Source of the DNA: Granulicella sp.
GTDB taxonomy: Bacteria; Acidobacteriota; Terriglobia; Terriglobales; Acidobacteriaceae
Reading direction: 5' to 3'
Length of the DNA stretch: 34,510 bases
Assembly: GCA_003133205.1 (NCBI GenBank)
Contig: PKWK01000247.1
Span: 2,811 to 37,320 of the forward strand
This document shows positions 3,401-28,264 of the stretch, piece by piece. A program made the position numbers and the translations under genes. Position 1 is the stretch's first letter. Each line of letters opens with the position of its first letter. A model generated the notes under the pieces. The model was not told where the DNA came from. It saw nothing but the letters and a program-made list of their open reading frames with translations, and did no database searches.

Positions 3401-5102
3401 GACGCAGGCGGTGGCGACCGCGAGCGCGCCGCAGACGATTACGGTTACAAATTCAGGCAATGCGGCGCTGACGGTGTCACAAATTGACACCTCGGGTGAT
3501 TTCACGGAGGCAGACAACTGCGTTGGAGCGGCAATCGCCGCGGGAGCAACGTGCGCGGTGCAGGTGAAGTTCCTGCCGGCAGCGGTGGGCGCACGCGTGG
3601 GCGTGCTGACGGTGTATGGCAACGTCGCGGGTGGACAGGCTACGGCTGCGCTGAGCGGTGTGGGCGCGCCGGCGGCGGCGATTGCATTGAGTCCAGTTTC
3701 GGTTACCTATTCGGGGACGAATGTGGGGGTGGTGAGCGCGGCGCAGAATATTGCGATCTCGAACACGGGCGGGGTTGCGGCTACGTTGCAGAAACCCGTG
3801 GTGACGGGCGATTTCACGATTACGGCGAACACCTGCGGCGCGACGCTGGCGGCGGGTGTGGGCTGTACGGTGTCGGTTGCGTTTGCGCCGACGGCCTCGG
3901 GGACGCGGGCGGGCAGCTTCAGCATTGTGGACAGCGCGGGGACGCAGACCTCGTCGCTGACGGGTGTGGGTGTGCTGCCGGCGACGGATGCGCTGGCGCC
4001 GCTTAGCCTGAGCTTTGCGGCGCAGCAGTTGAATACGGTGAGCGCGACTCAGCAGGTGACGCTCACGAATGCGGGCGATGCGGCGCTGACGCTGGTGGCG
4101 GCTCAGATTACCAGCGGCGACTTTACCGTGGTGAATAGCTGCGGGAACTCGTTGAGCGGGCACTCGGCTTGCTCGCTGCTGGTGGCGTTTGTGCCGAAGA
4201 ACGTGGGCGCGGGCGCGGGCGTGCTGACGGTGTCGGATGCGTATCGCTCGCAGACGGTGGTGTTGAGCGGGACAGGGGTTGCGCCTGCGGGAGTGTCGCT
4301 GTCGCCGGTGTCGACGGTGACGTTTGCGGCAACGGGGGTGGGGTTGAGTGCGGCGGCTCAGACGGTGACGCTGACCAATAATGGCGGGATGCCGCTGCTG
4401 ATTCAGAGCATGGGTGCGACGGGAGACTTTGCGGTTATAGCGGGGAGCAATACGTGCGGTTCCAGCCTGGCGGTGGGGGCTTCGTGTACGGCGCAGATTG
4501 TGTTTGCGCCTGGGGCGGCGGGGACGCGTGCGGGGAGTTTGGTGGTGGTGGATAGTGCGGGATCGTCGCCGCAGAGCTTGCAGTTGACGGGGATGGGCGT
4601 GGACTTTGCGCTGAGTGCGAATGGAAGCACGACGGCGACGATTTCGTCGGGTGGGCAAGCGGTGTATCCGCTGCTGCTGACCTCGGCGGCAGGCTTGCCG
4701 GGGAATGTTGCGCTTGCGTGCTCGGGCATGCCGGTGCATGCGACTTGCGTAGTGAATCCTGCGACATCGGCGATGGGTGGGACGACGACGATCAGTGTGA
4801 CGGTGGCGACGAGCGTGGCAGGTGCTGCTCTGCGGTGGCCGGGTCAGCAGCAGATGGTTTGGCTGGCGGGGTTGCTGCCGGTGTGGCTGCTCGGGCGGAA
4901 GCGATTGCGTCGGCTGGGTGGAGTTGCGATCCTGTGCTGCGTGGTGGTTCTTGTGGGTTGCGGGGCTTCGCGGCTGATTCCGATGACGAGTTCGGGTGGT
5001 GGGGCGGCGAGTCCAACACCGAGCGGGACGTACAACCTGGTGGTTTCGGGCACGAGCGCCGGGTTGACGCGGAGTGTGGGGCTGACGCTGATTGTGCAGT
5101 AG
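498..5102 (+). CDS. Giant secreted Asp-box beta-propeller protein with choice-of-anchor D repeats
   Basis: The open frame begins at a TTG at 375, but ATG 498 starts a clean signal peptide (MVRFVRGVAWCCVGLLML...AGSAQ), giving 1534 residues. The first ~950 residues carry sialidase-type Asp-box/BNR motifs (RSADGGVTW near residue 228, YSTDAGVTW, RSVDGGAHW near 845), suggesting beta-propellers of the VPS10/BNR-like kind. Four ~100-residue Ig-like choice-of-anchor D (ASPM-SPD-2-Hydin type) repeats follow, starting near residues 957, 1059, 1164 and 1265, each with a Cys pair. A last Ig-like domain starts near 1368. It is interrupted by two hydrophobic segments (near 1453 and 1475), the second ending VLVGCGAS. 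This is probably an exported surface or adhesive protein. No catalytic activity is evident; the substrate is unknown. G-rich codons produce long antisense frames that are not genes. Confidence 0.88.
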   Translation: MVRFVRGVAWCCVGLLMLPAAMAGSAQEAGANGSEAGGGVAASGVAAPATRARRFLAGRVTAGGASAAAALDAARRQHMAMAQSGVDAVRARSVGPERAAAQVNPLNAAWQAVGPKQIASQRYGNVTGRVTSVAIDPADATGNTVYVGTTGGGVWKSVNAAGAAGSVAFVPLTDVLPVFSANAGTVAIPSLSIGAVSVSPAGGGGVVLAGTGDANDASDSYYGEGILRSADGGVTWTLAQESHDGVAGNHSFVGLGVAGFAWNSASPKLVVAALSQAAEGVLVNAPDGTYSVMGLYYSTDAGVTWQMGTIQDGSQVVQRPGSGGGSGNAATAVVWNAVRQRFYAAVRAHGYYESADGVTWMRLAHQPGAGLTAAACPTNPGSTGSAGCPIFRGALAVQAATGDMFALTVDANNLDQGLWQDVCGLSGTSCAVSPIAFGKQLASGPLEVGSGSTAIAQADYDLALAAVATGSGANSDTVLFAGTVDLYRCSLAAGCVWRNTTNAVNGCAAPAMVSGAQHAIAAVAGAGTGGLPLVYVGNDGGVWRSVDGVNQLQTPCSPDDATHFQNLNGGLGSLAEVVSLAEHPTDVGTLLVGLGANGTAATGAASVGTAWPQISAGEGGTVAIDQVNPQNWYVSTAAGVNPRYCGNGSACAAADFAGAPTIGYAQVANDASLIDPPWLLDTALGTDVLIGTCRVWRGAAQSGAGWSGSNAISATLGAGLNGMCGGTNAMVRSLAAGGPASGAVAAQNAGSTVLYAGMAGGLDGGGNFGGHVFANYAAGTAGSSTVWTDVAKSTVTNDAADAGLFNPGGFDVSAVIVDGHDATGKTVFATVMGFAGNGVNAPHVYRSVDGGAHWTNISSNLPNAPANGLVVDPNDANTLYVAMDTGVYVTTQVATCASGNCWSVYGAGLPNAPVVAVAAAAGIATGDGRFGELRAATYGRGVWQIPLLTAASPAAPSMALNPVSLTFATQAVATASAPQTITVTNSGNAALTVSQIDTSGDFTEADNCVGAAIAAGATCAVQVKFLPAAVGARVGVLTVYGNVAGGQATAALSGVGAPAAAIALSPVSVTYSGTNVGVVSAAQNIAISNTGGVAATLQKPVVTGDFTITANTCGATLAAGVGCTVSVAFAPTASGTRAGSFSIVDSAGTQTSSLTGVGVLPATDALAPLSLSFAAQQLNTVSATQQVTLTNAGDAALTLVAAQITSGDFTVVNSCGNSLSGHSACSLLVAFVPKNVGAGAGVLTVSDAYRSQTVVLSGTGVAPAGVSLSPVSTVTFAATGVGLSAAAQTVTLTNNGGMPLLIQSMGATGDFAVIAGSNTCGSSLAVGASCTAQIVFAPGAAGTRAGSLVVVDSAGSSPQSLQLTGMGVDFALSANGSTTATISSGGQAVYPLLLTSAAGLPGNVALACSGMPVHATCVVNPATSAMGGTTTISVTVATSVAGAALRWPGQQQMVWLAGLLPVWLLGRKRLRRLGGVAILCCVVVLVGCGASRLIPMTSSGGGAASPTPSGTYNLVVSGTSAGLTRSVGLTLIVQ

Positions 5103-5113
5103 TGGCGATACAA

Positions 5114-5139
5114 CCCACGTCTCAGAAGCGAGACGTGGG
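5114..5139. repeat. Palindromic intergenic hairpin (REP-like)
   Basis: A perfect 10-bp stem, CCCACGTCTC (5114-5123) and GAGACGTGGG (5130-5139), with loop AGAAGC. It lies 11 bases after the stop of the giant gene and could act as a terminator, though no T-run follows. The next 90 bases hold a second repeat-like block (TTGCGCTTCGGCAAGCTCAG near 5185-5204) before the convergent flavoprotein gene. The TCTCAGAAGC part recurs in the repeats at 12.34 and 34.43 kb. Confidence 0.6.
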
Positions 5140-5239
5140 GCACCCCCAGCGATGTGGCGGGGTAGAGACTATTCCCACGATAACCTTGCGCTTCGGCAAG
5201 CTCAGGGCAGGCTGTGGGGCACCCAGATTGGTGGCGGGA

Positions 5240-6505
5240 TTACGCGGATTGGCCGGCGGCGACTCCGGAGGCCCAGGCCCATTGGAAGTTGTAGCCGCCG
5301 AGCCAGCCGGTGACGTCGACGACTTCGCCGATGAAGTAGAGGCCGGGGACTGTGCGGCTCTGCATGGTCTTTGCGTCAAGCGAGTTGGTGTCGACGCCTC
5401 CGACGGTGACTTCGGCCTTGTCGTAGCCTTCGGTGCCGGCAGGGAGGATACGCCAGGCGTGGAGTTGGCGCTCTATTTCGGCGAGGGCGGTGTTGGGGAG
5501 TGCGCGCGATTGGGCGTGGGCTGGATTGGCGCGGGCGTGGAGGGCGCGCCAGCGATCGGCGAAGCGGCCGGGGACGATGGAGCGAAGGGCCTGCGCGGTG
5601 GCGGAGAGGTCGCGGCGCGCGTCCGGGTGAGTAAGGGGCGCGAAGGTACGAAGGCTCGCGGGATCAGCGCTGGGAGGCGTGGAGTCTGGGTCGAGGTCGA
5701 GTTCGATGGGTTCGCCGGGGTGCCAGTAGGAGGAGATCTGGAGGATAGCTGGGCCGCTGAGGCCGCGGTGGGTGATGAGCATCTTCTCCCGGAACGTGCT
5801 TCGCACCGTTCTCGGCTTCGCGCTGGCTCTTCCGGATGATGCAGTGGTAGGGGCTGACGCGATGACTTCGGTGGAGATGCCGGCGAGGTCGCACCAGTCG
5901 GATTGATCCTCCGGATTGAAGACGAGGGGGACGAGGCCGGGGCGTGTTTCGACGATGGCGTGGCCGAACTGGGTGGCGAGGTCGTAGCCGAAGGAGGTTG
6001 CACCCATCTTGGGGATGGAGAGGCCTCCCGTTGCGACTACGAGGGAGGTGGCGGCGATGGGGCCGGTGTTTGTTTCGACGCGGAAACGGCTGTCGGCGTG
6101 CGCGACGGAGAGAATGCGGGTGGCGAGTTGGACGCGGACATTCGCTTCGGCGCACTCGCGCAGGAGCATGTTGAGGATGTCATTGGCGGAGCGGTCGCAG
6201 AAGAGTTGGCCGAGGGTTTTTTCGTGATAAGGGATGCGGTGCTTTTCAACCAGGGCGATGAAGTCCTGCGGGGTGAAGCGGGCGAGCGCGGACTTGGCGA
6301 AGTGGGGGTTGGCGGAGAGGAAGTTTTCCGGCTTGGCGTGGATGTTGGTGAAGTTGCAGCGACCGCCGCCGGAGATGAGGATCTTCTTGCCGGGGCGGTC
6401 GGCGTGCTCGAGCACGAGGATGCGGCGACCGCGGCGTCCAGCTTCGATGGCGCACATGAGGCCGGCAGCGCCGGCGCCAAGGATGAGGACGTCTACTTCG
6501 GTCAT
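5240..6505 (-). CDS. NAD(P)/FAD-dependent oxidoreductase, HI0933/BaiN (YhiN) family
   Basis: 421 residues from ATG 6503-6505, the usual length for this family. The N-terminal FAD dinucleotide-binding motif is GAGAAGLMCA (residues 11-20), followed by the family motif GKKILISGGGRCNFTN. Mid-protein THRGLSGPAILQISSYW and the C-terminal EVTVGGV...GLYFIGEVVDVTGWLGGYNFQWAW are diagnostic of HI0933-like flavoproteins. These are cytosolic two-electron oxidoreductases; the physiological substrate is poorly defined outside bile-acid-converting homologues. Between the ISTEV strand and FREKMLITHRG there is an extra stretch (around SSGRASAKPRTVRS, residues ~225-237). Its DNA resembles an insert in prmC (see 5796-5830). 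The neighbours are convergent or divergent, so it is probably monocistronic. Confidence 0.93.
   Translation of the reverse strand: MTEVDVLILGAGAAGLMCAIEAGRRGRRILVLEHADRPGKKILISGGGRCNFTNIHAKPENFLSANPHFAKSALARFTPQDFIALVEKHRIPYHEKTLGQLFCDRSANDILNMLLRECAEANVRVQLATRILSVAHADSRFRVETNTGPIAATSLVVATGGLSIPKMGATSFGYDLATQFGHAIVETRPGLVPLVFNPEDQSDWCDLAGISTEVIASAPTTASSGRASAKPRTVRSTFREKMLITHRGLSGPAILQISSYWHPGEPIELDLDPDSTPPSADPASLRTFAPLTHPDARRDLSATAQALRSIVPGRFADRWRALHARANPAHAQSRALPNTALAEIERQLHAWRILPAGTEGYDKAEVTVGGVDTNSLDAKTMQSRTVPGLYFIGEVVDVTGWLGGYNFQWAWASGVAAGQSA
5796..5830. repeat. Short repeat-like insert in frame within the flavoprotein gene
   Basis: The plus-strand block GTGCTTCGCACCGTTCTCGG followed by CTTCGCG resembles 17256-17284 inside prmC (GCACTTCGTGCGGTTCTCGA then CGCTTCGCG). 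In both genes it falls in a linker between conserved motifs and keeps the frame. Interpreting it as a mobile or palindromic small repeat is inference from the two copies. Confidence 0.4.
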
Positions 6506-6647
6506 AAGGTCTATTGTCAGCGAAGAGAGGCTCGATCTTACAACGGCGAGGCGAGTTTATGATTCCTATCAGTAGCGAGTCAGGAATCGGCTATGAGCTG
6601 TGAGCTTAGAGCAATGAGGTATGAGCGAGTCAGGGAAAGGGACAACG

Positions 6648-7517
6648 ATGAAGATCGATACGAAGGATTCCTACGTAACGCCGGGCAAGAAGGTCAAGCT
6701 GAACGATTGGCCGACGAGCGTGAAGCCGATCTACGGCTCGAAGGAGGAATACAAGGAGCTGCTGGAGAAGCACATTAAGGAAATGAGCTCGCTGCAGCAG
6801 CTTCTTTACGGGTCGAACCAGTATGCGTTGCTGCTGATCTTTCAAGGGATGGACGCTGCGGGCAAGGATGGCGCGATCCGGCACGTCATGTCCGGAGTCA
6901 ATCCGCAGGGCTGCGAGGTGGCGAGTTTCAAGCAGCCGAGCGCGGAGGAACTCGAGCATGATTTTCTGTGGCGCTCGACGCAGCGGCTACCCGAGCGCGG
7001 GCGGATCGGCATCTTCAACCGCTCGTACTACGAGGAGGTGCTGGTGGTTCGAGTGCATCCTGAGATTTTGCGGGGCGAGGGGCTTGCTGAAGGGCCACGC
7101 GACGGGAAAGACGTCTGGGAGCATCGGTATCGCTCCATCGTTGATTTGGAGAGACACCTTGATCGCAATGGAACTCGCATCGTCAAGATCTTTCTTCACC
7201 TGTCGAAGGAGGAGCAGAGGAAGCGGTTCCTGGCGCGGATCGATGATCCGGACAAGAATTGGAAGTTTGGCGCCGCGGACATTCACGAGCGCAAGTACTG
7301 GAAGGAATACACAGAGGCTTTCGAGGCGTGTTTGCGCGCGACCAGTACGCGTCATGCGCCGTGGTATGCGGTCCCTGCGGATGACAAGGAGAATGCGCGG
7401 CTGATCGTGTCGCAGATAGTTCTGGATGCGCTGGGGGAACTGAAGATGTCGTATCCGAAGACGACGGCAAAACGCCGGCAGGAGTTGCTGGCTATCCGCA
7501 AGGAACTGGCGAAGTGA
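6648..7517 (+). CDS. ppk2: Polyphosphate kinase 2 family protein
   Basis: Starting at ATG 6648 gives [18 protein letters not shown] and 289 residues. An upstream in-frame ATG at 6621 lies in repeat-like DNA (TATGAGC...), whereas GGGAAAGGGA sits just before 6648, so 6648 is preferred. PPK2 enzymes transfer phosphate between polyphosphate and nucleotides in the cytosol. Walker A is GMDAAGKDG (residues 67-75), the family sequence [13 protein letters not shown] follows, and the Walker B/lid region is [25 protein letters not shown]. DDPDKNWKF and the C-terminal [14 protein letters not shown] are also typical of single-domain PPK2. Whether it makes NDPs or NTPs is not decidable here. It is convergent with the YceI gene. 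Confidence 0.95.
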
Positions 7518-7520
7518 AGG

Positions 7521-7570
7521 GAGTGGTAAGTGGTAAGTAAGAACAGACAACTTACCACTTATCACTTAAG
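7521..7570. repeat. GTGGTAAGT inverted/direct repeat
   Basis: Direct copies of GTGGTAAGT (from 7523) are followed by the reverse complement ACTTACCAC (7550-7558), so the transcript can fold into a hairpin between two convergent genes. The same nonamer family occurs at 15704-15733 and 23970-24050 and, degenerate, near 17671. It is a dispersed intergenic repeat and perhaps a two-way terminator here. Confidence 0.6.
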
Positions 7571-7584
7571 ACTGACCACTGTGC

Positions 7585-8139
7585 TTAGGAGGGGTGCCAG
7601 ACCATGTCGACGCGGACTGGGATTTCGTTCTTGATGGGGATGGTGAGGAACGTGGGTGGTTCGATCTTGAAGTCGGTGAGCGTGGCGGGGACGATGCCTG
7701 TGATGTGATGGGCGGAGCCTTCGATCGTCTGGTGGAACTGCACGTGGGAGTAGTGTGCGGAGTTGCCGGCGAACTGGACTTCGAGGTCGCAGTCGAGCGT
7801 GGGCGATGTGAGGCTCGATTGCGTGAGTCGGAAGCGGACCTGAACGATGGGGAACTGCGCGCCGCGGCTGGTCTGGATCATATGCAAGTCGCGATTGCTG
7901 TCGCCGGAGTCGAAGGACTTGACGGGGGCGGCGATCAGGAAATCGCATTGCCCGGCGTGGCAGATGCCCTTGCCGCGAGCGCCGTGGCTGGTTCCGTCGA
8001 CCTCATGCATGGGATGCGACATGTGGTAGGTGAGAGAAGATTGATCGAGATTCCACGTCTGGTCGGGTGCCTGGGCGCGTGTGGGGGCGAATGAATGCAG
8101 CGAGAGCAGGAGGATTGCGAACAGCGGAAGTTTCTTCAT
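7585..8139 (-). CDS. YceI-like periplasmic (lipocalin-fold) protein
   Basis: The open frame extends to 8196, but ATG 8137-8139 starts a normal signal peptide (MKKLPLFAILLLSLHSFAPT) and has AGGGG just upstream, overlapping the stop of the preceding gene; 184 residues. The mature part matches the YceI-like pattern: WNLDQSSLTYHMSHPMHEVDG near the start and later strands ending TDFKIEPPTFLTIPIKNEIPVRVDMVW. YceI folds as an extended lipocalin-like barrel that binds isoprenoid or other amphiphilic ligands in the periplasm. The pair with the upstream b561-like membrane gene (7-base gap) parallels E. coli yceJ-yceI. The two are probably cotranscribed under the adjacent Rrf2 regulator. Confidence 0.85.
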   Translation of the reverse strand: MKKLPLFAILLLSLHSFAPTRAQAPDQTWNLDQSSLTYHMSHPMHEVDGTSHGARGKGICHAGQCDFLIAAPVKSFDSGDSNRDLHMIQTSRGAQFPIVQVRFRLTQSSLTSPTLDCDLEVQFAGNSAHYSHVQFHQTIEGSAHHITGIVPATLTDFKIEPPTFLTIPIKNEIPVRVDMVWHPS

Positions 8140-8146
8140 TGAACCC

Positions 8147-8932
8147 CTAGAGCTTGAGATGGATGGGCCAGGAGACGGCGATGATGGCTGCGCCATAGCT
8201 GATTGCGGTGGCGGTGGCGACGGCGCCGTGAGCGGAGGCGATGCCGTGAACCTTCTGGCCGCTGTTGATCTGGTTGAAGGCCATTGCGCCGAGGATGGGC
8301 GTCAGGATCATTCCGGGGGCATGGATGTAGATGAGGTACTTGTGCCACTTGACGCCACCGCGCGCGGGTTCGTTGGAGACTCTAGGAGCTCGGATTGCGT
8401 AGAAGGCGGTCGCGCTATACATGGCAACGGCTGCGCCGCCCAGCGCGACGTGTATGTCGCGCGAGGTGGTGTTGCCGTAATTGCCGTGTTGCGGCGGGGC
8501 GCCGATGGCGCTGATGCATGCAGCGGCGACTGGGATGACGGTGATGAGGCCGAGGCGCTGATGGACCTTCAGCATGCGGGTTCGCTTGTCGAGGAGGGCT
8601 TGGCGCGCCGCACTGCCTTCGGTCTCTGCCGGAGTTAGGCCGAGGTCACCGAGAGATGGACCAGCGCTGGGCGCTGGTGCATTTTGTGTGGGAGGCTGTA
8701 GGGAACTGCTGAACAAAAGCGGCTCGTCGCGGTCAACATTAGATCCTGACGCGGCCATCGGGACAGGGGCATCCGGCAATGTCAGCGATTCGGAGTTCGC
8801 CGCCAACTCAGGCGCTTGCGGGTTAGCCGTCTGTGCGGCAAGGGGGCTGACAGCTACAGAAAGAGCGATCAGACACGTCGCTGTACTCAAGAACCTGCCG
8901 CGGCCCGCTCGAAGGAGCCCGGGGATTTCCAT
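8147..8932 (-). CDS. Four-helix membrane protein, cytochrome b561-like
   Basis: 261 residues from ATG 8930-8932, preceded by GGAGG. It has an N-terminal signal (CLIALSVAVSPLAAQ), a Pro/Ala-rich periplasmic stretch to about residue 110, then four hydrophobic helices (about 124-143, 161-180, 200-218, 231-254). Histidines sit at or near the helix ends: H124, H161, H197, H204, H229 and H235, as expected for a haem-b four-helix bundle of the b561/ferric-reductase type. No family name was recognised by sequence alone. The b561 call rests on helix/histidine layout and on the neighbouring YceI gene (E. coli YceJ is a b561 homologue). It could instead be a haem-free membrane protein. Confidence 0.6.
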   Translation of the reverse strand: MEIPGLLRAGRGRFLSTATCLIALSVAVSPLAAQTANPQAPELAANSESLTLPDAPVPMAASGSNVDRDEPLLFSSSLQPPTQNAPAPSAGPSLGDLGLTPAETEGSAARQALLDKRTRMLKVHQRLGLITVIPVAAACISAIGAPPQHGNYGNTTSRDIHVALGGAAVAMYSATAFYAIRAPRVSNEPARGGVKWHKYLIYIHAPGMILTPILGAMAFNQINSGQKVHGIASAHGAVATATAISYGAAIIAVSWPIHLKL

Positions 8933-8965
8933 GTTGCCTCCAATTCTGTCGCAGCAAGTCTTAGT

Positions 8966-8982
8966 TCCCTAAGATTTAGGGA
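8966..8982. promoter_or_regulatory. Perfect palindrome, probable Rrf2 operator
   Basis: TCCCTAAGATTTAGGGA: two 7-base arms with a 3-base spacer. It starts about 6 bases downstream of the -10 box of the putative promoter at 8989-9017, so it would cover the transcription start of the b561-like/yceI operon. A dimeric repressor encoded by the upstream Rrf2 gene is the natural candidate. That assignment is inference. Confidence 0.55.
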
Positions 8983-8988
8983 TGTACC

Positions 8989-9017
8989 TTTATACCTGCC
9001 GTGGAGGAAGCGCGCAA
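8989..9017 (-). promoter_or_regulatory. Candidate sigma-70 promoter of the b561-like/yceI operon
   Basis: Read on the minus strand: TTGCGC (9017-9012), a 17-base spacer, then TATAAA (8994-8989), about 57 bases before the ATG at 8932. The -10 matches consensus at five of six positions, the -35 only at TTG. The spacing is ideal and a palindrome follows directly at the expected +1. Confidence 0.45.
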
Positions 9018-9131
9018 CTCGGCCAGCAACCATCGTGTGCGTCGGGAAGGGTGGGAGGCGGCCGGGTTCCGTTCGGTTGGAGGACAACACCGCAACCGAT
9101 GCACTACGCGTGTTGTAGGCGGAAGACCGCC

Positions 9132-24851: not shown

Positions 24852-24861
24852 ACTCGGGGCC

Positions 24862-24867
24862 AATCTA
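24862..24867. repeat. Target-site duplication, left copy (AATCTA)
   Basis: AATCTA directly precedes the left end of the element and AATCTA (27266-27271) directly follows the right end. With the preceding CC (24860-24861) and the CC of the right terminal repeat the match can be read as 8 bases, CCAATCTA, the duplication size usual for IS1595. The two readings cannot be separated here. Confidence 0.75.
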
Positions 24868-24890
24868 GGGGATTTATATACATGACTACC
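24868..24890. repeat. Left terminal inverted repeat of the IS1595 element
   Basis: Starts GGGGATTTATATACATGACT. It differs from the right end at 3 of 23 positions. The stop codon of the 44-residue ORF overlaps its inner edge. Confidence 0.85.
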
Positions 24891-25020
24891 TTTCTTGAGC
24901 ATCGGCCTTTGCTTTCTTCGCCTTGCGAACCCGCTTCTTTCCGCCCTTTGATTTCGGCGTGGGGCGGTAGGCGAGTACGACATCGGTTATTTTGTCGAGC
25001 AGTTCGGGAGTCTTTTTCAT
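24886..25020 (-). CDS. 44-residue basic protein coupled to the transposase
   Basis: Starts at ATG 25018-25020, overlapping the transposase stop as ATGA, and runs almost to the element end. It begins MKKTPELLDKITDVVLAYRP and continues with a Lys/Arg-rich tail (KSKGGKKRVRKAKKAKADAQ). A short predicted amphipathic helix followed by a strongly basic tail suggests a nucleic-acid-binding helper. Similar small basic ORFs next to IS1595 transposases are recalled but not verified here. The overlap implies translational coupling, so it is unlikely to be chance. Confidence 0.65.
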   Translation of the reverse strand: MKKTPELLDKITDVVLAYRPTPKSKGGKKRVRKAKKAKADAQER

Positions 25021-25946
25021 GCGGTCAACCTTTCGTAAGTGAGGCGCTTGCCATCGACGGACGCGATAAAGGCATCCAGCCGCGCCAAGGTGTGTTCTTC
25101 CACGTTGCCAGCGTTCAGGCGAAAGGCTACCTCGTCCACATAGCGCCCAAGGTGCTTCGGGGAGACGTGATGCCATGTGCCGTAGATGCCGCGCTTCAGG
25201 AGCGCCCAGACGCTCTCTATGGAGTTCGTGTTGACAGGGCCGCGAGCATACTCACCTTCGCCATGGTTGACGGTGCGGTGATTGAACCAAAGGCCGTCCA
25301 GACCCGCATAGCCCTTCGCCTCGTCCGTATGGATCATCGAACCGGGTTTGACGTGATCGTGGATAGCCTGATGCAAGGTGCGGAGTTCGGTGCCTTCGAT
25401 CACCATTCCCTTGACGCGGCCAGTGGTACGTTCGCGCATCCCAAGCACGATGGTTTTGCCGACCGATCCACGCCCCGCGTTCAGCCTCTTATGCTCGTGC
25501 TTGTTCTTTTCCTTTCCGCCGACGAAAGTCTCATCTACTTCGATCAGGCCAGCGAGACGAGCATCCTTGCCGCCTTTGCCCATGCAAGCCTCACGGAGAC
25601 GTTGGAGCATGAACCATGCCGTCTTCTGGGTGACGCCGATCTCCTTCGCCATCTGCATAGAACTGATTCCCTTCCGCGCTGTGACGAGCAGATACATCGC
25701 GTAAACCCATTTGTGTAGTGGTACATGTGACCGCTCGAAAATGGTTGCGGTACGGACGGTGAAATCAAGTTTGCATTGGTTGCAGCGGTAGAACCCGCCT
25801 TTACGGGCCGTGATCCGCTGGCTGGTAATGCAGGATGGGCAGACTGGGCCATCGGGCCAAAGGCGCGTTTCGAGGTAGATTCGCGCCGTCTCAGCGTCGG
25901 GGATGAGAGCGAAGAGTTGGAAGGTGCTGATAGTGGATTTGCTCAT
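25017..25946 (-). CDS. IS1595 family transposase (ISXO2-like)
   Basis: 309 residues from ATG 25944-25946. The N-terminal zinc ribbon has C36-x2-C39 (VCPSC) and C55-x2-C58 (RCNQC), then a helix-turn-helix (GISSMQMAKEIGVTQKTAWFMLQRLREA). The ISXO2-like DDE catalytic core has D138 in EVDETFVGGK, D208 in HTDEAKGY and N241/E244 in NTNSIESVWALLKRG, followed by GTWHHVSPKHLGRYVDEVAFRLN. All catalytic residues are present and the frame is intact, so it may be active. It overlaps the preceding gene by ATGA and the following small ORF by ATGA. Confidence 0.95.
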   Translation of the reverse strand: MSKSTISTFQLFALIPDAETARIYLETRLWPDGPVCPSCITSQRITARKGGFYRCNQCKLDFTVRTATIFERSHVPLHKWVYAMYLLVTARKGISSMQMAKEIGVTQKTAWFMLQRLREACMGKGGKDARLAGLIEVDETFVGGKEKNKHEHKRLNAGRGSVGKTIVLGMRERTTGRVKGMVIEGTELRTLHQAIHDHVKPGSMIHTDEAKGYAGLDGLWFNHRTVNHGEGEYARGPVNTNSIESVWALLKRGIYGTWHHVSPKHLGRYVDEVAFRLNAGNVEEHTLARLDAFIASVDGKRLTYERLTA

Positions 25947-26401
25947 CGTGTTCCTGCCATTCCCTTGTGATTCTCGCAGTGAGAAAATCCGTGGTCACCG
26001 GGGCCGAATGTGCGCCCACAGTTTGAGCAGAAGACATTATCGAACTTGAACGGATGGCGCATACAGCATCCGTCCTGACCCGGTTCGGAGCATCCCTGCC
26101 CGCACGGAGGTTTGAACTCCTTCGGCTTGTCAACCAAGCACAGTCCGCACATCTCAATCTGCGCCAACAACTTCATTGCCTCGCGGGAGGACAATAGCCG
26201 CTTGTAGGTTCGCTGGGCCTCTGCGGGTACTCGCAGCGCGTCGTCTAGCGTCCCAAAATGCTTTTGAAGCTCCACCACCATCATGGCGTGCGCCAACTTG
26301 TGTAGAACTTCTACGCGGGCATCAGAGATGCAATTCGCGTCGCCGGGATGTGGAATCGTTCCCCAACACTCAGGGCATTCAAGATTCTCAGTACCTTTCA
26401 T
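25943..26401 (-). CDS. Cys-rich passenger protein of the IS1595 element
   Basis: 152 residues from ATG 26399-26401, with AGAGG upstream. It starts MKGTENLECPECWGTIPHPG and ends in an overlap (ATGA) with the transposase. Possible metal sites: CPEC (9-12), a central CGLC, a cluster CGQGCSEPGQDGCC, then FCSNCGRTFGPGDHGFSHC. The middle (~30-90) is helical (HKLAHAMMVVELQKHFGTLDDAL). No known family was recognised. The zinc-ribbon ends suggest nucleic-acid or protein binding. Its coupling to the transposase suggests a role in, or dependence on, the element rather than in the host. Confidence 0.75.
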   Translation of the reverse strand: MKGTENLECPECWGTIPHPGDANCISDARVEVLHKLAHAMMVVELQKHFGTLDDALRVPAEAQRTYKRLLSSREAMKLLAQIEMCGLCLVDKPKEFKPPCGQGCSEPGQDGCCMRHPFKFDNVFCSNCGRTFGPGDHGFSHCENHKGMAGTR

Positions 26402-26801
26402 CGCCAACCTCTTTCTTTGTCGCGGCCTGCCAATCGGCAACAGCCTTCATATTCGGCCAGTTATTCTGCAACCTCATCCGACGCCGTTCGTATTCGCTAA
26501 TGAGAAGCGCAGATTTCTTCAATAGGAGTACCAATTCGGCAGCGTCTTCCCACCTAATCCATTCGCCTGTCTTGCAAGGCTCCATGACATGATCGTGATG
26601 GTAGTCGCCGGAGCTAGCCTTCACTAAATCGAACCTCTCCAGCTTATCTGGCGAGGAAGGCCAACCTTGCAACGATCTCTCCCAACAGTCCCCGCAAACA
26701 ATGGTGTCGCTAGGCAACCGGATAGTGTCATCTTCACAGCGTCCAGTGGGCTCGTCGCACAGTTCGCAATACTGAATCATCCTGCTATCCCTCGTATTCA
26801 T
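26388..26801 (-). CDS. Zinc-ribbon-like passenger protein of the IS1595 element
   Basis: 137 residues from ATG 26799-26801, chosen because AGGAG lies 5 bases upstream; an upstream TTG at 26816 is weaker. The N-terminus YCELCDEPTGRC...IVCGDCWERSL has two CxxC pairs about 20 residues apart, as in a small zinc-binding fold. The rest is mainly helical (WEDAAELVLLLKKSALLISEYERRRMRLQNN). It overlaps the previous gene by 17 bases and the next by 14. Family unknown. Confidence 0.72.
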   Translation of the reverse strand: MNTRDSRMIQYCELCDEPTGRCEDDTIRLPSDTIVCGDCWERSLQGWPSSPDKLERFDLVKASSGDYHHDHVMEPCKTGEWIRWEDAAELVLLLKKSALLISEYERRRMRLQNNWPNMKAVADWQAATKKEVGDERY

Positions 26802-26988
26802 CGTTGCTCCTTCCAATGCGCTCTGCCGCTTGCCTGATGCTCAGTGGCTTGTTGGGATAGTTTGGGTGGTGGGTGTAATGGTTGAGACTGCGGAGGTGGG
26901 ATTCGTGCATCAAATCCTCGCCGCAGTGATTGCACTCGCGCACCAAAATACCGTCTACATACTTCGCCTCATGGTGGTGGAAGGTCAT
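26785..26988 (-). CDS. Small Cys/His passenger protein of the IS1595 element
   Basis: 67 residues from ATG 26986-26988, preceded by a strong AAAGGAG. It begins MTFHHHEAKYVDGILVRECN and contains CNHCGEDLMHESHLRSLNHY, a CxxC pair followed by spaced histidines, which may bind zinc. The end is SIRQAAERIGRSNDEYEG. It overlaps the previous ORF by ATGA. No family recognised; the Cys/His pattern alone is too little to call it a nuclease. Confidence 0.68.
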   Translation of the reverse strand: MTFHHHEAKYVDGILVRECNHCGEDLMHESHLRSLNHYTHHPNYPNKPLSIRQAAERIGRSNDEYEG

Positions 26989-27173
26989 AACGCTCCTTTC
27001 GTAGCGAAGCGGCGCTGAATCAGCGAATCCGCGAAGGATGGATCGCGGAGCGTGTAGGAGAATCGGAGATAATCCGAAGGGAAAAGGAATCCAGCAACTT
27101 TCTTGCATTCAATCAAGGCGTCGATTGCAAGAGGAGCTGATCCCGTTGTCACTACTCTTCCCAAGTCATTCAC
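26985..27173 (-). CDS. First passenger ORF of the element, possibly 5'-frameshifted
   Basis: Read from GTG 27171-27173 it is 62 residues (VNDLGRVVTTGSAPLAIDAL...LIQRRFATKGAL) and ends in an ATGA overlap with the next gene. That GTG has no ribosome-binding site. Upstream, GGAGG is followed by ATG 27202-27204, which opens only MTSEY then TAA (27187-27189). Dropping one T from the TATTAAAA run would fuse it into MTSEYKIAYAVNDLGR. The gene is therefore either frameshifted by one base, recoded, or preceded by a five-codon leader peptide. Family unknown. Confidence 0.55.
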   Translation of the reverse strand: MNDLGRVVTTGSAPLAIDALIECKKVAGFLFPSDYLRFSYTLRDPSFADSLIQRRFATKGAL

Positions 27174-27265
27174 TGCGTAGGCTATTTTAATATTCGCTGG
27201 TCATGTGTTCCTCCATTCCTCAATAGTACATAACTCCCTCGTGGGAGTCAAGTATATAATTCCCC
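27174..27265. promoter_or_regulatory. Right end and probable promoter region of the element
   Basis: About 90 AT-rich bases between the first passenger ORF and the outer edge, including the right inverted repeat (27243-27265) and, on the minus strand, the ribosome-binding sequence TGGAGGAACAC before ATG 27204. The promoter of the operon should be here or in the terminal repeat (TATATAC is present), but no confident -35/-10 pair was found. Confidence 0.4.
27243..27265. repeat. Right terminal inverted repeat of the IS1595 element
   Basis: In plus orientation it ends AGTCAAGTATATAATTCCCC. Its reverse complement matches the left repeat at 20 of 23 positions. AATCTA follows immediately. Confidence 0.85.
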
Positions 27266-27268
27266 AAT

Positions 27269-28264
27269 CTAGCGCAGCGGCGTGAGCGGAAAATCGCGGT
27301 AGTAGAGCGGCTTGTAGCGCAGTATGTTGGCGGCAGCTTTGCACGGCGTCATGGGGGAGATCGCGGTCAGGATGAGTCGGTTGTGCGTGCGCTTCCAGAT
27401 ATGCGGCATGACGTACTTGTCCACCAGGTCTTCCATAATGTTCCATCCCACCCCGTAAACGGGCGTGTCGACGAAGTCCTGGAAGCCGGTCTCGTTGGTG
27501 CTGCGCCCGTGCACTCTCGGGGTGAAGTAGGTATTGAGGCCGCTGTTGCCGATGGAGGCTTCGCTGGCCGGCCCGATCTTCCACTGGACCTCGTAGACCG
27601 TGATCCATGCCATCGCCTTCAGGCGGCTGCGCCAATAGTTACCGTTGTTGACGTAGATGAGGCCGCGACCCTTGGGGTCGTGCTGCTCGAAGCTGCTGGC
27701 GACGATTGCACCCTGCATGCCGTGGCCAACGTAATCGACCATGAAGCCGTCGTCGTCGGACCACTGCCGGTAGCGAAACTGATGCACGCATTTGACGTAG
27801 GTTGCCCAGTAGGGATTGGTGACCAGATCGTGGCGGGTCTCGCTGTCGAAGGCGATGTTACCGGCGTTCTCGAGTGCGGTCGCCGCGAACGCTTCCCCGA
27901 CGATGGGGAGCCAACTGACCCTGCATGGCTTGCCGTGCAGCGCGCCGGACTGACAAGCCGCGTCGAGTTCCTGCCGGGTGAGCCTGGGCGCCGGGGATTC
28001 GCTCGCCGGGACAGAGGACGATGCCGACAGGACGATGTGGACGACGGCGTAATCCGGTTTGGGAAACTGCGCGTAGGCTGCGCTTGACTCGCCCGCCAGG
28101 CTCGCGTCCGGGGCATCGGGCAGTTCGGCAGTCTGGCCGGCCGGCGTGGGCGGCACCGAAGGTTCGATAGCCGAGGAAGGGACTTCGCAGGCGCCAAGCA
28201 CGGCGATCAGGCAGGCACCCCTGAGGATGCGTACTACGACGATCTGTTGAAACGTGGGGCACAC
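27269..28264 (-). CDS. Exported protein of unknown function, probable lipoprotein
   Basis: GTG 28262-28264 is chosen over TTG 28327 because AGGAG lies 7 bases upstream; it gives 331 residues. The N-terminus has VRILRGACLIAVLGACEVPS: a short basic part, a hydrophobic core and a lipobox-like LGAC. A Pro/Ala-rich stretch follows, then a C-terminal half with PIVGEAFAATALENAGNIAF, VDYVGHGMQGAIVASSFEQH, WITVYEVQWKIGPASEASIG and DTPVYGVGWNIMEDLVDKYV. This layout recalls membrane-associated DUF3943-like proteins, a weak resemblance. The IS1595 element is inserted exactly at its end: the stop codon TAG lies within the target duplication, so the protein is intact. The outer-membrane protein gene is just upstream in the same direction. 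Confidence 0.7.
   Translation of the reverse strand: MCPTFQQIVVVRILRGACLIAVLGACEVPSSAIEPSVPPTPAGQTAELPDAPDASLAGESSAAYAQFPKPDYAVVHIVLSASSSVPASESPAPRLTRQELDAACQSGALHGKPCRVSWLPIVGEAFAATALENAGNIAFDSETRHDLVTNPYWATYVKCVHQFRYRQWSDDDGFMVDYVGHGMQGAIVASSFEQHDPKGRGLIYVNNGNYWRSRLKAMAWITVYEVQWKIGPASEASIGNSGLNTYFTPRVHGRSTNETGFQDFVDTPVYGVGWNIMEDLVDKYVMPHIWKRTHNRLILTAISPMTPCKAAANILRYKPLYYRDFPLTPLR

Follow-up and report, generated by a model that had tools for sequence, protein, structure and literature searches.

Insertion sequences (ISs) of the IS1595 family have terminal inverted repeats that start with GG and comprise the groups ISPna2, ISH4, IS1016, IS1595, ISSod11, ISNwi and ISNha5, with an N-terminal Zn ribbon found in all but IS1016. 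Relatives with passenger genes were reportedly described by Siguier in 2009. In transporter ISs (tISs), simple IS ends and one transposase surround passenger genes unrelated to transposition; Tn7-like transposons are larger and use multi-protein machinery. The subject of this analysis is an IS1595-family element located in a 34,510-nucleotide stretch of Granulicella sp. DNA (GCA_003133205.1, contig PKWK01000247.1, positions 2,811 to 37,320), from now on referred to as the window. The element contains four small cargo genes (A to D), a transposase gene and a gene for a short basic peptide (E).

The window element is probably a cargo transposon of the IS1595 family, of a phage-associated kind and present here in a chromosome, and we read it as a new, phage-associated and modular variant of the IS1595 cargo element. 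Its transposase belongs to the IS1595 family; the element itself is a variant and not a standard IS1595 insertion sequence, because all 78 intact elements of its clade carry further DNA. Judging from the aligned sequences, a fixed frame consisting of the left end with its leader, the transposase, peptide E and the right end recurs with 8-base-pair (bp) duplications at AT-rich sites, and up to three cargo slots can be recognized: between leader and transposase, between transposase and E, and between E and the right end. The remarkable part is the frame carrying the genes, not the four genes. Transposases are described as very rare in phages in an excerpt of one study, at <0.4% of phage recombining genes (PMC10879196), and a transposon lineage that is found mainly in contigs of uncultivated phages, and never without cargo among 78 intact copies, is therefore unexpected.

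An IS1595-type frame with exchanged cargo

The features of the window element, which is read leftward, are as follows.

24861–24868, no strand: left copy of the target-site duplication, CAATCTAG (direct reading; 8-bp register from relatives)
24869–24891, minus strand: terminal inverted repeat, right end of the element (operon end; repeat listing and relatives)
24886–25020, minus strand: gene E, conserved basic peptide of 44 amino acids (helix, RPxPKSK, basic helix); 4-bp overlap with the transposase stop
25017–25946, minus strand: IS1595-family transposase, 309 amino acids, intact, Zn ribbon and DDE domain (Pfam and motifs)
25943–26401, minus strand: cargo gene A, N-terminal module and C-terminal zinc-type module CSNCGxxFGPGDHGFSHCENH
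26388–26801, minus strand: cargo gene B, CxxC pair and RFDLV..DYHHDHVME..GEW module
26785–26988, minus strand: cargo gene C, 67 amino acids, ECNHCGEDLMHESH; its halves are found apart in other small proteins
26985–27173, minus strand: cargo gene D, open reading frame (ORF) of 62 amino acids with GTG start; weakest gene call
27207–27264, minus strand: conserved left-end leader, 58 bp, 93% identical to the phage-contig element L081
27223–27251, minus strand: sigma-70-like promoter TTGACT-17-TACTAT, -35 within the inverted repeat; score 9 of 12
27234–27247: palindrome CTCCCACGAGGGAG, extending into the promoter spacer
27242–27264, minus strand: terminal inverted repeat, left end of the element (promoter end; repeat listing and relatives)
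27265–27272, no strand: right copy of the target-site duplication; it contains the stop codon of the neighboring leftward gene, so this stop is kept

Alignment with relatives sets the limits of the element at 24869–27264 (2,396 bp), one base inward at each end compared with the first reading, with GGGATTTATATAC starting at 24869 and GTATATAATTCCC finishing at 27264. The earlier note on this DNA had described imperfect 23-base inverted repeats, and these are present: the arms (24868–24890 and 27243–27265) are complementary at 20 of 23 positions (87%) and form the longest inverted repeat among those listed for the region. The duplication it had seen around the unit is real as well, its length being 8 bp instead of 6; the 6-bp version was rejected since 8 bp agrees with the relatives. 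The six leftward genes overlap as claimed, by 4 (D/C), 17 (C/B, using the 26801 start), 14 (B/A), 4 (A/transposase) and 4 bases (transposase/E).

Ends were scored by a matrix built from 120 ends, the consensus of which is GGGAATTATATACTTGACTCCCT; the repeats begin with GG as in the IS1595 family, and 5'-GG termini are given for Merlin in an excerpt of PMC8101967. In 284 loci and the window, 190 facing end pairs could be identified, 146 of them with a duplication matching at 7–8 of 8 positions, compared with 2 among up to 760 shifted controls (four per pair). The 44 pairs without such a duplication were excluded as elements. Reduction at 95% identity and length left 100 distinct elements, whose ends enclose an intact transposase in 82, a broken one in 11 and none in 7. 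Within this set, chosen for at least 7 of 8 matching positions, the duplication is exact in 95. The clade proper (at least 59% transposase identity) contributes 78 intact elements (68 viral, 9 from genomes, and the window), each of which has 150 bp or more of extra sequence in at least one slot and a minimum of 485 bp in addition to the transposase. Cargo is located only before the transposase in 38, only after E in 23, only between transposase and E in 7, and in combinations of slots in 10; a few E positions, for which the longest frame was taken, are uncertain. A leader of <150 bp alone precedes the transposase in 33 copies. Elements made up of frame and cargo span 1.4–3.8 kb. In one viral contig, an element is nested in another (L108, 2727–7070, inner copy 3624–5784).

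The nearest relative, L081, is located on a phage contig with a terminase and has a transposase 93% identical to that of the window. Homology between the two elements covers the 58-bp left end (93%) and a block of 1,080 bp (84%) that opens with the start codon of the transposase and extends to the right end. Nothing is shared between these blocks, where L081 carries two genes unrelated to A–D, and the elements have no cargo in common. Fifteen chosen pairs without common cargo, with transposases about 90% or more identical, follow the same design. Nine of these pairs have cargo upstream of the transposase in both members; their left blocks span 52–140 bp and their right blocks begin no more than 5 bases from the start codon. 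In pairs with downstream cargo (L087/L092 and L098/L208), homology stops within E and resumes for the final 28–31 bp. Of 160 pairs of distinct elements with 80–90% identical transposases, 4 have any cargo relative in common; at 90–100% identity the figure is 10 of 25, the other 15 pairs having none, and it is lowered by the removal of near-identical elements. These comparisons indicate that foreign genes were replaced as blocks while the frame was kept.

The earlier note had suggested that the passengers may aid transposition or target choice, a proposal that the different cargo accompanying close transposases does not support. That A–D are dedicated transposition or target-choice factors of the window element is very unlikely: their position directly ahead of the transposase, in an operon with 4–17-base overlaps, would fit such a role, whereas L081 has unrelated genes in their place, 33 of the 78 intact copies have the short leader alone, and B, C and D are without a relative in the 311 loci searched (E-value <= 0.01). 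Because the frame recurs with cargo swapped between relatives, A–D appear to be one exchangeable load, and help with transposition is not supported. Homologous transposases with the same ends but never these genes, which the note had taken to speak against a distinct transposon type, are nearly what is observed for A–D, yet other cargo is present in every intact relative. The element type does seem distinct, though not as defined by A–D; the constant companion of the transposase is peptide E, found in 76 of 78 intact copies. The initial observation is therefore confirmed, and its first interpretation was half right.

Close relatives in phage contigs and chromosomes

The earlier note's assignment of an IS1595 element with an overlapping passenger operon is borne out by Pfam. 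The catalytic domain matches DDE_Tnp_IS1595 (PF12762, E-value 1.6e-45, 155 bits against a cut-off of 27) and the N-terminal Zn ribbon matches PF12760 (4.3e-8, 33.4 bits against 25.4). The D/D/E motifs VDETFVGG, HTDE and NSIESVWALLKRG have matches starting at residues 137, 206 and 241, and a self-made pattern of the three motifs fits 54 of the 78 clade transposases. No significantly similar solved structure was found for the transposase.

Six peptide patterns derived from the transposase yielded 223 relatives in the genome collection, the best 80 of which were kept, and the identical patterns yielded 102 in IMG/VR, of which 80 were kept, some being partial and some sharing a contig. Transposase identity reaches at least 60% in 74 of the 80 kept viral loci (best segment) and in 12 of the 80 kept genome loci. 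With L087 as a further viral query, 139 relatives were obtained, of which 80 were kept, many on contigs already encountered. Among 396 Acidobacteriota genomes drawn, three match at an E-value <= 1e-80, and at least 60% identity is found only in the genome of L001, the center of the draw. In a tree of 105 rows, 84 rows form a clade (99/92) consisting of 71 viral and 13 genome rows, with the window as sister to L081 (100/100).

The larger proteins of the viral flanks (78 scanned of 103 selected) match families of terminase large subunits, portal, major head, baseplate and head-tail adaptor proteins, RecT and primase. A terminase of one of four families was detected in 23 of 43 whole viral records, representing 43 of the 80 viral loci with a few near-duplicates; a search for a fifth family in 22 viral records and 12 genomes left the viral count unchanged and gave a match in one genome. 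The flanks of genome-derived members (52 proteins) match 27 PHROG families, and the 25 listed are mostly metabolic or DNA-handling enzymes with one integrase and no structural family. Since viral flanks hold phage families while genome flanks hold mostly enzymes, the transposase lineage resides in phages and also in chromosomes. No account of IS1595 elements in phages or of such cargo exchange was found among the open-licence papers listed, preprints excluded.

As an explanation, an ordinary IS1595 insertion without any particular lifestyle, into which some host or phage genes were captured on one occasion, is unlikely. IS1595 relatives with passenger genes are reportedly known, and distant IS1595 copies with matching ends (L023, L025, L033 and L070) also carry extra DNA. 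It is opposed by the presence of cargo in every intact clade copy, the repeated block exchange, the viral enrichment and the near-constant E. Cargo fixed in close relatives would favor an ordinary insertion, and 15 of the 25 pairs at 90% identity or more do not share theirs.

A promoter-like left end and a conserved companion peptide

Sigma-70-like sites scoring at least 9 of 12, as in the window, are found in 44 of 78 left ends compared with 3 of 78 right ends; 4.8 left ends would be expected at this score when the bases behind the repeat are shuffled. Among the 60 left ends with any site, the -35 box lies at base 14 in 40 and the spacer is 17 bp in 55. Of 45 elements that have cargo upstream, 26 show a final cargo frame running up to or into the start of the transposase (-8 to 0), and in 8 no frame was found close to this start. 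A 4-base overlap between E and the end of the transposase gene is present in at least 35 of the 59 elements in which the two lie close together. The left-end sites and overlaps would fit one operon, read from the left end with coupled translation.

Two of the 76 E relatives score below 30 bits. Across an alignment of 18 copies, L8, V15 and L16 do not vary and Y18 and P20 hardly do, and the structural model consists of two helices linked by RPxPKSK (predicted local distance difference test score, pLDDT, 89). E is under purifying selection, the ratio of nonsynonymous to synonymous substitution rates, summed over ten non-overlapping pairs, being 0.15 for E and 0.10 for the transposase. E has no Pfam or PHROG match and no significant relative among solved structures. 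Its likeliest role is that of a DNA-binding partner of the transposase or the ends, to which we give an even chance. Long cargo proteins that begin with an E-like stretch are encoded in L011, L244 and L280 (a P63C-type protein or a C5 methyltransferase).

Cargo genes of the window copy and its relatives

No Pfam model matches A–D at its cut-off, and a PHROG scan of A–E gave no convincing match; D matches neither collection. A, B and C are mosaics whose modules recur in other small proteins. The zinc module of A sits at the end or beginning of such proteins, and the middle module of B and both halves of C recur separately elsewhere. Relatives of A and C (P0002 and P0015) are each listed on one 2,875-bp contig, probably the same, and A and C may travel together. 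In the 311 loci, the only part of A with relatives is its C-terminal zinc module, which is present in one other element, L275 on a phage contig, and in 11 viral stretches, retrieved because they contain this module, that show no such transposon ends. In the latter (L285–L295), the CSxCGxxFGPGDHGFSHCxxH module is found in small proteins with differing surroundings and no Pfam match over the cut-off. Back-translated patterns detected no relatives of A or B in the viral collection, and in GenBank phage records A has one weak match (E-value 0.01), in two records of one phage, and B none. In L275, the contig of which stops before any right end could be read, a gene with A's module overlaps a Lar restriction-alleviation gene upstream of the transposase and E. 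This arrangement is the best pointer to a counter-defence role, and is only a hint.

The label "zinc proteins" for the passengers rests on CxxC spacing. With two or more CxxC in 11 of 151 plus-strand ORFs of the first element set, zinc-type cargo is not the rule. A predicted fold of gene B was discarded (pLDDT 48). Gene D is the least certain of the window genes. Following the GGAGG ribosome-site-like sequence of the leader, a five-codon frame (ATG at 27204 to TAA at 27187, within 27187–27214) precedes its GTG, and since only this frame stands between the two, D may be a damaged gene.

Across the family, Pfam analysis of 87 cargo proteins (of 105 selected) identified three PAPS reductases and one each of P63C, N6/N4 methylase, C5 methylase, Lar, Dam, DUF551 and ASCH. 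PHROG matches (25 of 49 families listed) include PAPS reductase (phrog_424) in 5 of 87 proteins, several methyltransferases and many unknowns; the PADLOC families (25 of 74 listed) are mainly those methyltransferases and SspD/DndC-like domains. Two further C5 methylases follow an E-like start in L244 and, with a weak E score, in L280; the long L011 protein behind such a start is taken to be the P63C match. Some of the family's cargo is of kinds known to protect viral DNA against the defences of bacteria, and the methyltransferase and Lar cargo lends indirect support to the earlier note's suggestion of host-defence escape. Longer cargo proteins (L008, 7017–7613; L010, 7031–7561; L007, L009, L085 and L106) look membrane-bound or coiled-coil by eye. 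Pfam gave no match for L007, L008 and L009 at an E-value <= 0.1 and none over the cut-off for L010; our impression is that some could be effector-like.

Seven distinct elements contain no transposase between their ends, six of them with exact duplications and two with a methyltransferase alone. The latter, L164 (1681–2583, 903 bp) and L178 (6996–7740, 745 bp), have an N6/N4 methylase as their only long frame and exact 8-bp duplications. Exact duplications also flank L185 (1,298 bp, small frames and E), L199 (391 bp) and L262 (736 bp), and the duplication of L135 matches at only 7 of 8 positions, leaving this element doubtful. The 98-kb viral contig L109 contains a 285-bp copy (8780–9064) with one 77-amino-acid frame and an exact duplication, located 842 bp from a full copy. 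These elements are probably cargo-only derivatives, which would need transposase supplied in trans. The full L109 element (5931–7937) carries a C5-methyltransferase-like gene and has ends of the same type as the 285-bp copy; this pairing of a full and a mini-element is also seen in L143 and L224.

Insertion sites and chromosomal setting

A+T makes up 82% of the 95 exact duplications, and their base pattern is symmetric: 3 start with G and 3 end with C. Insertions lie in an ORF-like stretch of at least 100 amino acids in 46 of 87 cases with enough flank, compared with 1459 of 1740 random sites, and thus avoid frames. For L011, a diverged paralogous site (78% identical) with a single target copy is present on the same contig.

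In the window, the element is inserted directly after the end of a LytTR regulator gene. The gene on its right has relatives in 45 of 200 genomes of the family, and no LytTR gene is found beside them in 12 loci or in 13 kb of the best genome. A 253-amino-acid frame across the joined site is taken to be spurious, since it reads through the LytTR gene in a different frame and through the other neighbor on the opposite strand. Seven of the ten larger flanking window proteins match Pfam at an E-value <= 0.001, including a SpoU methylase, a release factor, an aldo/keto reductase and an HI0933-like protein, and no phage family is found among the ten. A decayed prophage or phage satellite, with leftover genes beside an IS by chance, could account for the recurrence of A–C modules in small proteins and of A's in viral contigs. 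This scenario is extremely improbable because the exact duplication surrounds the whole unit, the ends enclosing exactly A–E and the transposase, and no phage family is among the ten flanking proteins just described.

Proposed lifestyle and comparison with known systems

Several observations weigh against a phage-associated cargo transposon with a chromosomal window copy. No empty chromosomal site was found for the window element and no movement was observed, the signs of mobility being the duplications and the single-copy paralogous site of L011. In the first set, 9 of 87 loci have an end pair without duplication (including L005 and L010) and 17 have no end pair. About half of the insertions (46 of 87) still lie within a possible ORF, and 34 of 78 left ends fall under the promoter threshold. 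Recognized cargo is sparse, with eight Pfam families and 10 member matches over 87 proteins, and cargo is not private to the clade, since the four more distant IS1595 elements with matching ends also hold extra DNA. Only 3 of 50,697 GenBank phage records match the transposase, all at no more than 36% identity, and 20 of the 43 viral records are without a terminase match, many being fragments and the four families missing some terminases.

In the lifestyle we propose for the phage-associated cargo transposon, the left end would supply a promoter from which first-slot genes are transcribed at once, while the transposase would be made late through coupled translation and E would work with it or with the ends as a DNA-binding cofactor. 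The elements would persist because their cargo repays the phage that carries them, through protection of its DNA or takeover of the host. The window copy would have come from a phage into an acidobacterium-like chromosome, a direction that the tree does not show, with A–D as one such load, possibly anti-defence. A broader proposal, which we consider slightly less probable than its opposite, is a phage gene-shuttle in which promoter-bearing ends, transposase and E form a universal frame, counter-defence or host-takeover genes are exchanged, and cargo-only elements (285–1,298 bp) are moved in trans. If so, phages would swap accessory genes across unrelated genomes without homologous recombination. 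The lineage itself offers a concrete and testable route by which phages acquire methyltransferases, Lar-like and other small accessory proteins. It also helps with unrecognized cargo, as any gene lying between such ends becomes a candidate for a function in counter-defence or host takeover.

Tn7-like transposons differ from the elements described here, which have one transposase with E, unrelated machinery, a length of 1.4–3.8 kb and phage-type cargo. Some cargo falls into the PHROG category "moron, auxiliary metabolic gene and host takeover" (PAPS reductase), as in phage morons; unlike morons, these genes lie between transposon ends with a target duplication and could thus move on their own. 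The combination of a Zn ribbon with a DDE_Tnp_IS1595 transposase and an 8-bp duplication is shared with the IS1595 family, which is described with a single transposase gene in an excerpt of PMC8101967, whereas here all 78 intact clade elements carry cargo, nearly all encode E, and most are located on viral contigs. Transporter ISs, for which passenger genes are described in an excerpt of PMC3942029, are similar in that methyltransferase, PAPS reductase, Lar and P63C cargo lies between IS ends, and differ from the present elements, in which cargo is exchanged as blocks among close relatives, the left end is promoter-like, and transposase-less single-gene derivatives are found.

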